From: Ideonella livida
Lineage (GTDB): Bacteria > Pseudomonadota > Gammaproteobacteria > Burkholderiales > Burkholderiaceae_C
Reading direction: 5' to 3'
NCBI RefSeq assembly: GCF_010499455.1
Contig: NZ_JAAGOH010000006.1
Span: forward strand, 159,003 to 223,002
DNA: 64,000 nucleotides
In this document: in pieces, positions 7,506 to 16,774 of the stretch
How positions within the stretch are numbered: the first letter of the stretch is position 1
Layout of the letters: each line of letters starts with the position of its first letter
Translations under genes and position numbers: made by a program
The notes under the pieces: model-generated
What the model was told of the DNA's origin: nothing
Database searches by the model: none
The model's input: the letters and a program-made list of their open reading frames with translations, nothing else

Positions 7506-8633
7506 TCAGCCGCGGCGGGCCTGAACCGCGGCGCTCAACAGCGCCAGCACCTGCTCCGTGTCGTCCCAGCCGATGCAGGCGTCGGTGATGCTCTGGCCGT
7601 AGCAGAGCTTGGCCGGATCGTCCTTGCCCGGAGAGAACTTCTGCGCACCCGCCACCAGATGGCTCTCGATCATCACGCCGAAGACCTGCCGGCTGCCCTG
7701 CTGGAGCTGGGCGGCGATGTCCCGGGCCACGTCGATCTGGCGCTGGTGCTGCTTGCTGGAGTTGGCGTGGCTGCAGTCCACCATCAGGCTGGCGGGCAGC
7801 TTGGCGGCGGCCAGCTCCTGGCAAGCCGCCGTCACGCTGACGGCATCATAGTTCGGGGTCTTGCCGCCGCGCAGGATGACGTGGCAGTCCTTGTTGCCCT
7901 TGGTCTGGACGATGGCCACCTGCCCGTTCTTGTGCACCGACAGGAAATGGTGGGGCCGGGCCGCCGCCTGGATGGCGTCCACGGCAATGCGCAGATTGCC
8001 GTCGGTGCCGTTCTTGAACCCGATGGGGGCCGACAGGCCGGAAGCCAGTTCGCGGTGCACCTGGCTCTCGGTGGTGCGCGCGCCGATGGCGCCCCAGCTG
8101 ATCAGGTCGCCGATGTACTGCGGGCTGATGGTGTCGAGGAACTCGCTGGCCGCGGGGACCCCCTGGCGGTTGATCTCCAGCAGCAGCTGGCGGGCGATGC
8201 GCAGGCCCTCGTCGATGCGGTAGCTCTCATCCAGGTAGGGGTCGTTGATCAGCCCCTTCCAGCCCACCGTGGTGCGCGGCTTCTCGAAGTACACCCGCAT
8301 CACCACCTCCAGGCTGTCCTGGTACTTCTCGCGCAGCGGACGCAGGCGGCGCGCGTAGTCGATGGCGGCGGCCGGGTCGTGGATCGAACACGGGCCCACG
8401 ATGACCAGCAGGCGGTCGTCCTTACCGTGCAGGATGTGGCGCACGGTCTGGCGGGTCTCCTTGACCAGACGCTCGACGGGACCGCCGGCGATGGGGAAGA
8501 AGCGGATCAGGTGCTCGGGGGGGGGCAAGGGGGTCACCTCCTGGATGCGCAGGTCGTCGGTCTCGCTGGTGCGTTCACGCAGCGACCAGGCACTGGGGTT
8601 GTCCACGGGGGCGGCGGTCTTGGTGGCGTTCAT
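7506..8633 (-). CDS. aroG: 3-deoxy-7-phosphoheptulonate synthase (DAHP synthase, class I)
   Basis: Joins phosphoenolpyruvate and erythrose 4-phosphate, the first and most controlled step of the shikimate pathway to Phe, Tyr and Trp. At 375 residues it matches the AroF/AroG/AroH class, with GPCSIHDP, the FEKPRTTVGWKG segment, the ARTTESQVHRELASG segment and DCSHANSSKQ. ATG at 8633 with GGAGA upstream. About 70 bases upstream lies a strong terminator preceded by a short Phe/Tyr/Trp-rich reading frame, suggesting attenuation control; isozyme feedback type (Phe, Tyr or Trp) cannot be read with certainty. Confidence 0.97.
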   Translation of the reverse strand: MNATKTAAPVDNPSAWSLRERTSETDDLRIQEVTPLPPPEHLIRFFPIAGGPVERLVKETRQTVRHILHGKDDRLLVIVGPCSIHDPAAAIDYARRLRPLREKYQDSLEVVMRVYFEKPRTTVGWKGLINDPYLDESYRIDEGLRIARQLLLEINRQGVPAASEFLDTISPQYIGDLISWGAIGARTTESQVHRELASGLSAPIGFKNGTDGNLRIAVDAIQAAARPHHFLSVHKNGQVAIVQTKGNKDCHVILRGGKTPNYDAVSVTAACQELAAAKLPASLMVDCSHANSSKQHQRQIDVARDIAAQLQQGSRQVFGVMIESHLVAGAQKFSPGKDDPAKLCYGQSITDACIGWDDTEQVLALLSAAVQARRG

Positions 8634-8701
8634 CAGGTCTTCTCCGGTGGATGGGATCGGGTGGATCGATCAGGGACGTGGCGCCTTGCTGCGGACCGGC
8701 G

Positions 8702-8729
8702 AAAAAAAACCGCCGGGGCTGCCGGCGGT
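8702..8729 (-). terminator. Terminator between sulfatase gene and aroG; candidate attenuator terminator
   Basis: On the minus strand an 8-bp GC stem (ACCGCCGG/CCGGCGGT) with a 5-base loop is followed by eight T residues. It ends the transcript coming from the sulfatase gene and also lies inside the leader of aroG, 29 bases past the stop of the leader reading frame. Its 5' arm (CCGCCGG, plus-strand positions 8722-8728) can instead pair with CUGGCGG in the leader reading frame (8784-8790), giving a possible antiterminator. Confidence 0.88.
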
Positions 8730-8757
8730 CTTCTGGGGGTGTTCGCTTCGCTGTTTC

Positions 8758-8838
8758 TCAGGTGCGCGCGTTTGCCTCTCCAGCCGCCAGACGGGGCGAG
8801 AACCAAAAGTAGGCAAAGAAAAATCGCGAAGCGCGCAT
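8758..8838 (-). CDS. Candidate aroG leader peptide, 26 residues, rich in Phe/Tyr/Trp
   Basis: A 26-codon frame from ATG at 8838 to TGA at 8758-8760. Residues 6-13 read FFFAYFWF, that is five Phe, one Tyr and one Trp in eight or so codons, directly upstream of a terminator and of the first enzyme of aromatic amino acid synthesis. This is the layout of pheA-type attenuation, where ribosome stalling on scarce aromatic tRNAs blocks terminator formation. No Shine-Dalgarno sequence is visible; an extended -10 (TGCTACATT) puts the transcript start within a few bases of the ATG, so it may be leaderless. Alternatively the pyrimidine-rich stretch is a dispersed repeat that happens to encode aromatics. 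Confidence 0.6.
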   Translation of the reverse strand: MRASRFFFAYFWFSPRLAAGEANART

Positions 8839-8846
8839 AGCCGTTG

Positions 8847-8854
8847 AATGTAGC
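8847..8854 (-). promoter_or_regulatory. Candidate extended -10 promoter of the aroG leader
   Basis: On the minus strand TGCTACATT matches an extended -10 (TGnTATAAT) and would start RNA at about 8840, next to the leader ATG. No good -35 is present; that region falls inside the end of the sulfatase gene. The same TGCTACATT word occurs upstream of sucC. Confidence 0.4.
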
Positions 8855-8858
8855 ACGA

Positions 8859-10199
8859 TCAAGTGGGCAGGTGCCGGGCCAGCTCGGCGATGACACCGGC
8901 GTAGGCCGGATCCCCGGCCAGGTTGCGGTGCTCACCCGGGTCGGCCTGCTCGTCATAGAGCTCCTGCTCTCCCCGGGCATAACGGATGTAGCGCCAGCGG
9001 CTGTCACGCACGGCGAAGTTGTGCTGATCCAGTGTCGTGACCACAGGCTCGCTCCAGCTGAGGTCGGCCTGGGTCATGAGCGGTGTCAAGTCACGACCGT
9101 CCATGGCGTAGGTGGGCTTCACCCCACACTGGCTCATCAGGGTAGGGGCCAGGTCCGCCAGGCTCACACAGGAATCAATGGCGCGGCCAAGGCGCTGCCC
9201 TGGCAGGCGGATCAGGAACGGCACCCGGGTGGCGTGCTCCCACAGCGCCAGCTTGTGCCAATGGAACTTCTCCCCCAGATGGAAGCCATGGTCACTCCAG
9301 AGCACCACGATGGTGTTGGCCGCATGGGGACTGGCCTCCAGGGCGGCGATGAGCCGGCCAATCTGCTCATCCACCCAGGAGATGGTGGCCAGATAGCCCT
9401 GGACGGCGGAGGCCCAGAGGTCCTGCCGCACGATGCACTCGTGGAATTTCCACTTGAGCGCAAAGGCCTTGGCCTCCGGCCCCAAATCCTCCAGCTCATC
9501 CGCAGGCACGGTGGGCAGGATGAGCTGGTCCAGCGGATACAGGTCGATGAACCGCTGCGGCGTGTACCAGGCGACGTGGTTGCGATAGAGCCCCACCGAC
9601 AGGCAGAACGGCCGCCCGACCGCCTGTGCCTTGAGGAAGTCAATGCCCCGCTGGGCCAGGATGTAGTCGGGCTGCCCGGACTCCAGTCCCGGGGCAGGCC
9701 CCCAGTCAAATGCCCCCTGAAAGTCCAGATCCGTGCTGCCATGGACCGCGGGGCACTGCTTGTTGTGGTACGGCCGGCTCACCGGCACGGGTTGTGACAG
9801 GGCGCCGGCCCACTCATGGTCAATCTTGCCGTGGCGCTGCACCTGATAGCCGGCGCCCGCCAGCATCTGGTCGAACTGCAGCTTGCCTGGATTTTTGGAC
9901 TTGAAGGTCGCGCTGAGGTCGTACACGCCCGTGGACTGCGGAGACAAGCCCGACAGGACGCTGGCCCGGGAGGCGGAGCACACCGGGACCGTGCAGTAGG
10001 CACGGCGGAAGTTGAAGGCGCTGGCCGCCAGGGCATCCATGTGCGGCGTCTTGGCCTGCGGATGCCCCAGGAAACCGACCCAGTCATTCAGGTCATCCAG
10101 GGCAATGTTGAGGATGTTGGGGGTGAGCTGCCCGCTGCCCGATCCGCAGCCCGTCAGTGCCGCGCCAAGGGCGAGTTGAAGAAGTTCGCGTCGTTGCAT
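8859..10199 (-). CDS. Sulfatase (iduronate-2-sulfatase-like), exported lipoprotein
   Basis: A 446-residue type I sulfatase hydrolysing sulfate esters, most like the iduronate-2-sulfatase branch (DDLNDWVGFLGHPQAKTP). The formylglycine motif is C74-S-A-S-R78, followed by ASVLSG; metal-binding Asp35-Asp36 lie near the N-terminus and DHG appears later (SDHGFHLGEK). The N-terminus MQRRELLQLALGAALTGC has both a twin arginine and a lipobox (Cys18), so it is probably exported folded and lipid-anchored. No formylglycine-generating enzyme is in the window. It follows the acyltransferase by 24 bases and is likely co-transcribed with it. Confidence 0.9.
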   Translation of the reverse strand: MQRRELLQLALGAALTGCGSGSGQLTPNILNIALDDLNDWVGFLGHPQAKTPHMDALAASAFNFRRAYCTVPVCSASRASVLSGLSPQSTGVYDLSATFKSKNPGKLQFDQMLAGAGYQVQRHGKIDHEWAGALSQPVPVSRPYHNKQCPAVHGSTDLDFQGAFDWGPAPGLESGQPDYILAQRGIDFLKAQAVGRPFCLSVGLYRNHVAWYTPQRFIDLYPLDQLILPTVPADELEDLGPEAKAFALKWKFHECIVRQDLWASAVQGYLATISWVDEQIGRLIAALEASPHAANTIVVLWSDHGFHLGEKFHWHKLALWEHATRVPFLIRLPGQRLGRAIDSCVSLADLAPTLMSQCGVKPTYAMDGRDLTPLMTQADLSWSEPVVTTLDQHNFAVRDSRWRYIRYARGEQELYDEQADPGEHRNLAGDPAYAGVIAELARHLPT

Positions 10200-16383: not shown

Positions 16384-16774
16384 GGGCAGCAAGCCTTCTT
16401 CAGATGCAACGGGCCGCGCCCGCACCGGCCAGCAGGCCGAGGAGCGGGCCGCGGCCTTCCTGCAGCGGCAGGGCTTGCGCCTGCTGGCCCGCAATTATCG
16501 GGTGGCCCTGGGGCCTTACCGCCGCGGCGGCGAGATCGACCTGATCCTGCAGGACCGCGATGGCACGGTGGTGTTCGTGGAAGTGCGGGCCCGGGCGGCC
16601 GGGGCCCGGGTGGACGCGGCCGCCAGTGTCACCGCCATCAAGCAGCGCCGTGTGGTGCATGCGGCCCAGCATTACCTGCAGCGCTGGCCCCGGCTGCCGC
16701 CCTGCCGCTTTGACGTGGTGGCCGTTGACGGCGAGCAGCTCCAGTGGCTGCAGGCGGCGTTTGAGGCCGGCTGA
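16376..16774 (+). CDS. yraN: UPF0102 family endonuclease-like protein YraN
   Basis: A 132-residue protein with the restriction-endonuclease-like core [11 protein letters not shown] and VFVEVRARA (E..D...E.K-type pattern) preceded by [17 protein letters not shown]. Function is not established. ATG 16376 has AGGAG just upstream. Its first eight bases overlap the start of rsmI on the other strand. In many proteobacteria rsmI, yraN, diaA and a BON lipoprotein gene form this same cluster. Confidence 0.93.

Follow-up and report, generated by a model that had tools for sequence, protein, structure and literature searches.

A candidate leader-peptide transcription attenuator with Phe, Tyr and Trp codons upstream of aroG in Ideonella livida and its relatives

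The leader region upstream of aroG

The region between a sulfatase-like gene and aroG in Ideonella livida is, with high probability, a leader-peptide transcription attenuator that would open aroG when charged Phe-, Tyr- or Trp-tRNA is short. The region carries several of the elements by which an attenuator is recognised, namely a frame of pathway codons, an intrinsic terminator, an antiterminator that excludes it, and a placement of the codons that is predicted to free the antiterminator strand. An attenuator had been proposed here from the letters of the DNA alone (the sequence-only reading), and the proposal is supported by the absence of a further full copy in the genome and by conservation of the codons, the terminator and the antiterminator strand. 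Positions given below are those of the window, the whole 64,000-nucleotide stretch that was analysed, and the features of the leader region all lie on its minus strand.

DAHP synthase catalyses the entry step of the shikimate pathway, and aroG (7506..8633, start codon ATG at 8633), the gene predicted to be regulated, encodes an enzyme of DAHP synthase family I (PF00793, E 1.7e-97). The sulfatase-like gene upstream of the leader (8859-10199, PF00884) ends 20 bases before the ATG of a short frame, MRASRFFFAYFWFSPRLAAGEANART, which spans 8758..8838 with the stop included (ATG at 8838, TGA at 8760-8758) and comprises 26 codons. Translation places the putative regulatory codons, FFFAYFWF, at residues 6–13 (8800..8823), so that seven aromatic codons fall within a run of eight. 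The window has 553 ATG-initiated frames with a length of 12-60 codons (306 on the plus and 247 on the minus strand), of which this one alone has at least 7 aromatics in 10 residues; four others reach 5 in 10.

The terminator is formed by segment 3, CCGCCGG (8722..8728), a loop (8721-8717), and segment 4, CCGGCGG (8716-8710), followed by a U tract (8709-8702), the 3' side as a whole occupying 8702..8716; the hairpin has a folding energy of -20.1 kcal/mol. It was missed by a generic consensus scan of 8500-9100, which returned no promoters and no terminators. Segment 3, which is identified by sequence, fold and conservation, is also the partner of the antiterminator strand, segment 2 (CUGGCGG, 8784..8790), in which a core GG[C/U]GG and a neighbouring pair are conserved. 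The sequence-only reading had placed the leader frame, the terminator (8702-8729, ahead of the DAHP synthase gene) and the pairing of CUGGCGG with CCGCCGG, and we recovered all three: the coordinates and translation of the frame agree, hairpin and U tract are present where described, and CTGGCGG at 8790-8784 is complementary to 8728-8722, including one G-U.

Two further helices appear in the fold of the window leader. A proposed 1:2 hairpin joins segment 1, UUCUC (8798..8802), to GAGAG (8776..8780); it is clear in the window fold, and the evidence for it across loci is weak. An outer helix of 8 bp is formed by CGCTTCGC (RNA CGCUUCGC; 8826..8833) and GCGAAGCG (8744..8751), which are exact complements, and it shapes the predicted ribosome-free fold. 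Overall, the leader folds with a z score of -2.32 relative to shuffled sequences, 4 of 200 of which folded equally well.

Proposed mechanism

Upstream of the frame, TGCTACATT (8847..8855) matches the extended -10 promoter box TGnTAnnnT. With the usual -10-to-start spacing, the predicted start lies no more than about 3 bases from the leader AUG; the placement of this box is the ground for proposing that transcription likely begins at or near the AUG itself. A ribosome would then stall on any of the seven aromatic codons when the cognate charged tRNA is short, cover segment 1 and leave CUGGCGG (8790-8784) free. Pairing of the freed strand with the 5' terminator arm, CCGCCGG (8728-8722), would preclude the terminator hairpin and let transcription run on into aroG. 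Under an ample supply of aromatic amino acids, the ribosome would move across CUGGCGG and be released; the leader RNA would then fold back on itself and form the terminator, giving a transcript of approximately 135 bases.

The switch between these structures is a prediction of the folding model. In the window, the predicted probability of the antiterminator is 0.99, 0.94 and 1.00 with the ribosome on the first, middle and last aromatic codon, respectively, falling to 0.31 with the ribosome at the stop codon and to 0.00 without a ribosome. For these calculations the leader was folded up to the second terminator arm, and a stretch of 28 bases, the size of a ribosome footprint, was held unpaired.

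Copy number and gene neighbourhood

A search of the 5.26-Mb genome with the 171-base region gave one match. When 16 bases of the pyrimidine-rich run were searched with at most 2 mismatches, they were found at their own position and at one other place, and an RNA model of the leader gave one full-length match plus seven others (E 10 or better) that are partial and lie towards the terminator end. The sequence-only reading had offered a dispersed repeat as its alternative account of the pyrimidine-rich stretch and had called for a search for further copies. The single full copy leads us to reject the repeat, and the outcome of the search thus favours the attenuator.

The genome has a second DAHP synthase gene (G000:C7:104614-105660), 59% identical, and no aromatic-rich short frame was found in the 330 bases searched upstream of it; this gene is perhaps an unregulated or differently regulated isozyme. 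Elsewhere in the window, 16430-16518 (minus strand) matches the Twister-sister ribozyme with 34.3 bits, against a threshold of 34. The match is near the start of a frame that we take to be rsmI-like and overlaps long frames on both strands; being GC-rich and borderline, it may be due to chance.

Conservation before aroG

In order to assess conservation independently of the leader, we used the best 80 named loci of AroG relatives, chosen by protein similarity alone from a larger number that exist. One (L036) had no upstream DNA, and among the remaining 79 a short frame with at least 5 aromatics in 10 residues precedes aroG in 58. The frame is kept in 32 of 39 loci with at least 73% AroG identity and in 26 of 40 below that level. 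In these counts L048, in which a 5-aromatic frame was judged chance-like, was left uncounted, and L002 was left out as the same place as L001. A clear leader was not found in 21 of these 79 AroG-chosen loci, which include three from Polynucleobacter, three from Methylotenera and two from Cupriavidus (AroG ~74% identical), as well as Shewanella, Colwellia, Enterovibrio and Erwinia.

Several individual loci deserve description. The leader of L010, MRTTVRYHFWHFHIQHLTGAGVANA, keeps the layout and has His in several aromatic places, which could reflect decay or changed sensing. Before aroG in L104, the terminator and the later portion of the leader are retained, and an aromatic run was not seen. 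L044, L069 and L070 come from records named as Gemmataceae, Anaerolineae and Devosia MAGs; their AroG proteins are 63-66% identical to that of the window, and they are possibly mis-binned contigs.

Adding the window and 28 of the 29 loci found through leader DNA (L084-L112, which stay outside the count of 58 in 79) to the 58 AroG-chosen leaders gave 87 leaders. An ATG frame with at least 5 aromatics in 10 residues occurs in 87 of 109 upstream regions, 30 of which are the window and the loci found by leader DNA, compared with 2 of 109 reverse strands and 16 of 1090 shuffled sequences. A chance frame was rejected, the observed frame being far above the reverse-strand, shuffle and window-frame nulls. 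The terminator hairpin was detected by script in 83 of the 87 leaders; three of the other four have hairpins with larger loops, and in one the stretch ends early.

Wider searches returned the same arrangement. Matches to the leader DNA (E 0.001) were found in 175 of 299 genomes of the family, some of them to the terminator only. The RNA model, at E 1e-5 and with strict filters, matched 7 of 369 genomes in a search of the class and 45 of 200 in a search of the order. Excluding the window's own genome, RNA-model matches came from 48 genomes, 33 of which gave loci (L123-L155; 15 weaker matches were left out). Every one of the 33 has an aromatic-rich frame with aroG behind it, 32 have a CCGCC...GGCGG hairpin with a T run in the stretch read, and four (L125-L128) come from two families outside the order of the window. 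Conservation in relatives, on which the sequence-only reading had made its case depend, is therefore seen for the aromatic codons, the terminator and the antiterminator strand, all kept before aroG.

The promoter box is conserved over a shorter range. In 56 of the 60 close loci a TGnTAnnnT motif has its end 6-9 bases ahead of the leader ATG, compared with 0.17% of shuffled flanks; among the 27 distant loci only two have it there, and by eye most of the Burkholderia- and Massilia-like ones instead carry a TATA-like box farther upstream. For the close relatives of the window, the sequence thus makes it likely that transcription begins on the leader AUG or no more than about 3 bases from it. The probably leaderless start of the sequence-only reading is supported for this group and not for the distant loci.

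Codons of the leaders

Phe, Tyr and Trp are all present in 68 of the 87 leaders, Phe and Tyr in 18, and Phe and Trp in one; the corresponding numbers for the 58 leaders chosen by AroG from the best 80 loci are 41, 16 and 1. Of the 60 close leaders, 44 carry Trp at one particular position and 44 carry Tyr at a second, and most substitutions exchange one aromatic for another. Phe is encoded by UUU in 57% of leader codons in the close loci as opposed to 11% in the same aroG genes, the GC content of which is ~66%, and the UUU share is higher in the leader in 59 of 60 loci. The 27 distant loci show 77% UUU in the leader versus 17% in aroG, the leader being higher in 26. Within the close set UUU is nearly fixed at two places (40 of 41 and 48 of 50 Phe codons), and the last Phe is UUC in 50 of 53. 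The excess of UUU could serve slow decoding, or it could keep the leader unpaired.

Antiterminator pairing across loci

RNAalifold applied to the whole alignment returned the terminator only, and in the MAFFT alignment of 66 sequences the GGCGG core was one column off between groups; for this reason antiterminator pairs were counted on pieces anchored at the core. The core was required, which kept 82 of the 87 loci and dropped L069 and L070 (no core), L071 (terminator cut off), and L101 and L102 (core AGCGG). The leader core is GGCGG in 77 of the 82 and GGTGG in five, opposite CCGCC.

The base before the core pairs with terminator arm 3 in 69 of the 82 loci, compared with at most 65 in 2000 permutations that ignore the relatedness of the loci. 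Read as leader, arm 3 and arm 4, the paired combinations are C-G-C (47 loci), U-A-U (12), U-G-C (7), A-U-A (2) and U-A-A (1), and the pair is broken in the leader in 13 of 82, with A-G-C (7), C-A-U (3) and A-A-U (3). The leader and arm 4 bases tend to co-vary, as expected if both pair with arm 3, and the changes are confined to few groups and so represent only a few events. One position farther out, 65 of 82 loci have a pair, which is not clearly more than in permutations (0.09); the two positions beyond it are paired in 28 and 41 of 82, and no covariation signal was seen on the opposite side of the core among the 82 loci. The mean energy of the antiterminator duplex is -16.8 kcal/mol with a locus's own arm, -15.6 kcal/mol with the arm of another locus, and approximately -11 kcal/mol with a shuffled leader.

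Counted from the first base of the final aromatic codon, the antiterminator strand starts 10-21 bases (most often 13) downstream. When a stalled ribosome was modelled, the antiterminator probability exceeded 0.5 in 74, 78 and 75 of the 82 loci for a ribosome on the first, middle and last aromatic codon, and in none, by construction, for a ribosome over the core. The same level was also exceeded in 49 of the 82 for a ribosome at the stop codon and in 35 of the 82 when no ribosome was present, and the off state is therefore not explained everywhere. The model thus predicts the on state nearly everywhere; the off state is predicted clearly for the window, though not for every relative.

The additional helices fare less well across loci. 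The 1:2 hairpin (UUCUC 8802-8798 with GAGAG 8780-8776) is present in 80 of 82 predicted folds, against a null that already gives 77%, and it showed no extra stability over shuffled sequences across the loci (mean z -0.36). For the outer helix, an exact complement of at least 7 bases was found in only 9 of 82 loci, and the mean duplex energy is -9.2 versus -7.7 for shuffled sequences; it is therefore at most weakly general, and we rejected it as a general part of the attenuator. The 8-base pair that the sequence-only reading had pointed out (8833-8826 with 8751-8744) accordingly stands as an exact complement in the window and not as a conserved element.

Comparison with known systems

Judged from sequence and modelled folds, the leader would resemble the pheA and trp attenuators in most features examined. 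The E. coli pheA attenuator has a leader peptide with a run of Phe, a terminator and a competing antiterminator, and in E. coli ilvGMEDA one leader peptide is read for three amino acids. The leader described here shares with pheA the aromatic run, the terminator and the competing antiterminator, and differs in the gene that follows, in its three aromatics and in a leader that likely has no Shine-Dalgarno sequence; ilvGMEDA, likened here by description and not by sequence, differs in its amino acids (Leu, Ile and Val) and its genes. The closest Rfam match over a full model is RF01859 Phe_leader with 18.5 bits (E 0.96), far under the threshold of 55, and membership in that family was rejected; the scan of the leader against Rfam 15 gave no family at gathering score.

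The aroR-aroF attenuator of C. glutamicum was reportedly studied by Neshat et al. in 2014. According to the available parts of PMC11802643 and PMC4046766, its leader peptide AroR contains Phe-Tyr-Phe, and stalling upon Phe limitation raises transcription of the operon; the same part of the review PMC11802643 states that Tyr availability is without effect on the aroF operon. With an aromatic leader peptide before a DAHP synthase gene, this system, compared by description from these excerpts, is the nearest in function, and it differs in that it belongs to an actinobacterium and has Phe-Tyr-Phe only, whereas the leaders described here are proteobacterial and have about seven aromatics, usually with Trp. 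The excerpts also name pheL (PMC11802643), and the portion available of PMC1183508 lists ilvGMEDA as an attenuated operon. In S. meliloti, the trp attenuator RNA rnTrpL begins with the ATG of trpL and acts in trans (PMC7298713). The peptide peTrpL also acts in trans. The likeness lies in a transcript that starts at the leader AUG, mapped there and predicted here; the S. meliloti leader is for Trp only and precedes trp genes.

The open-access literature yielded no report of this leader before aroG in Beta- or Gammaproteobacteria and no match to the literal leader words, subscription papers being outside the scope of that search. In tyrA-linked operons an aroA-type name presumably denotes DAHP synthase. 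Table 7 of PMC1173090 gives computer-predicted attenuators before such operons, for example Vibrio aroAI-alpha-Y > tyrA. Some of these operons are similar in opening with an aroA-type gene; their gene arrangement is different, and an aromatic leader peptide is not described in the available portion of that paper.

Alternative explanations

The position of the hairpin close behind the sulfatase-like gene, which ends 20 bases before the leader ATG, would suit a mere terminator of that gene, with the aromatic frame arising by chance or as a dispersed repeat. We regard this as exceedingly improbable: the region has a single full copy, the frame is far above its nulls and conserved before aroG, the base next to a constant core covaries, and in 56 of the 60 close loci a promoter box stands where the frame would need it. 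A role in trans for the terminated leader RNA or for its peptide, whether in addition to attenuation or in its place, is unlikely, the peptide after the aromatic run varying between groups. Such a role would fit the predicted product, a short RNA beginning at or near the AUG, and it has a precedent in rnTrpL, which starts with the trpL ATG and acts in trans (PMC7298713, in the part available).

The attenuator reading itself leaves room for two views of what is sensed. Codons for an aromatic amino acid do not in themselves prove that it is sensed. That the attenuator answers a single amino acid, most likely Phe, with the Tyr and Trp codons adding little, is a serious possibility that falls somewhat short of being probable. 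Phe is present in all 87 leaders and is their commonest residue, Trp is missing from 18, and Tyr has no effect through the Phe-Tyr-Phe peptide AroR (PMC11802643, as excerpted). On the other hand, the position of Trp and that of Tyr are each shared by 44 of the 60 close leaders, most exchanges are between aromatics, and stalls on the first, the middle and the last aromatic codon should, according to the folding model, be about equally effective. We tentatively propose the alternative of a nearly leaderless, widespread attenuator in which one peptide acts as a three-input OR gate on entry into the shikimate pathway, responding to shortage of Phe, Tyr or Trp, with the disfavoured codon UUU sharpening the stall. 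We place the claim that all three are sensed well below certainty because Tyr is reported to be without effect on aroR-aroF.

Significance

The E. coli DAHP synthase genes are repressed by the TyrR and TrpR proteins, as stated in the parts available of PMC11878033 and PMC11802643. In a large group of Proteobacteria, such a gene appears to be under the control of an RNA switch, with two or three of the end products represented in a single peptide. The leader falls under every Rfam 15 threshold, and a new family model would therefore help annotation. If the proposed attenuator is correct, it would provide a simple, testable case of one attenuator summing several signals, and also a case of attenuation from a nearly leaderless start.
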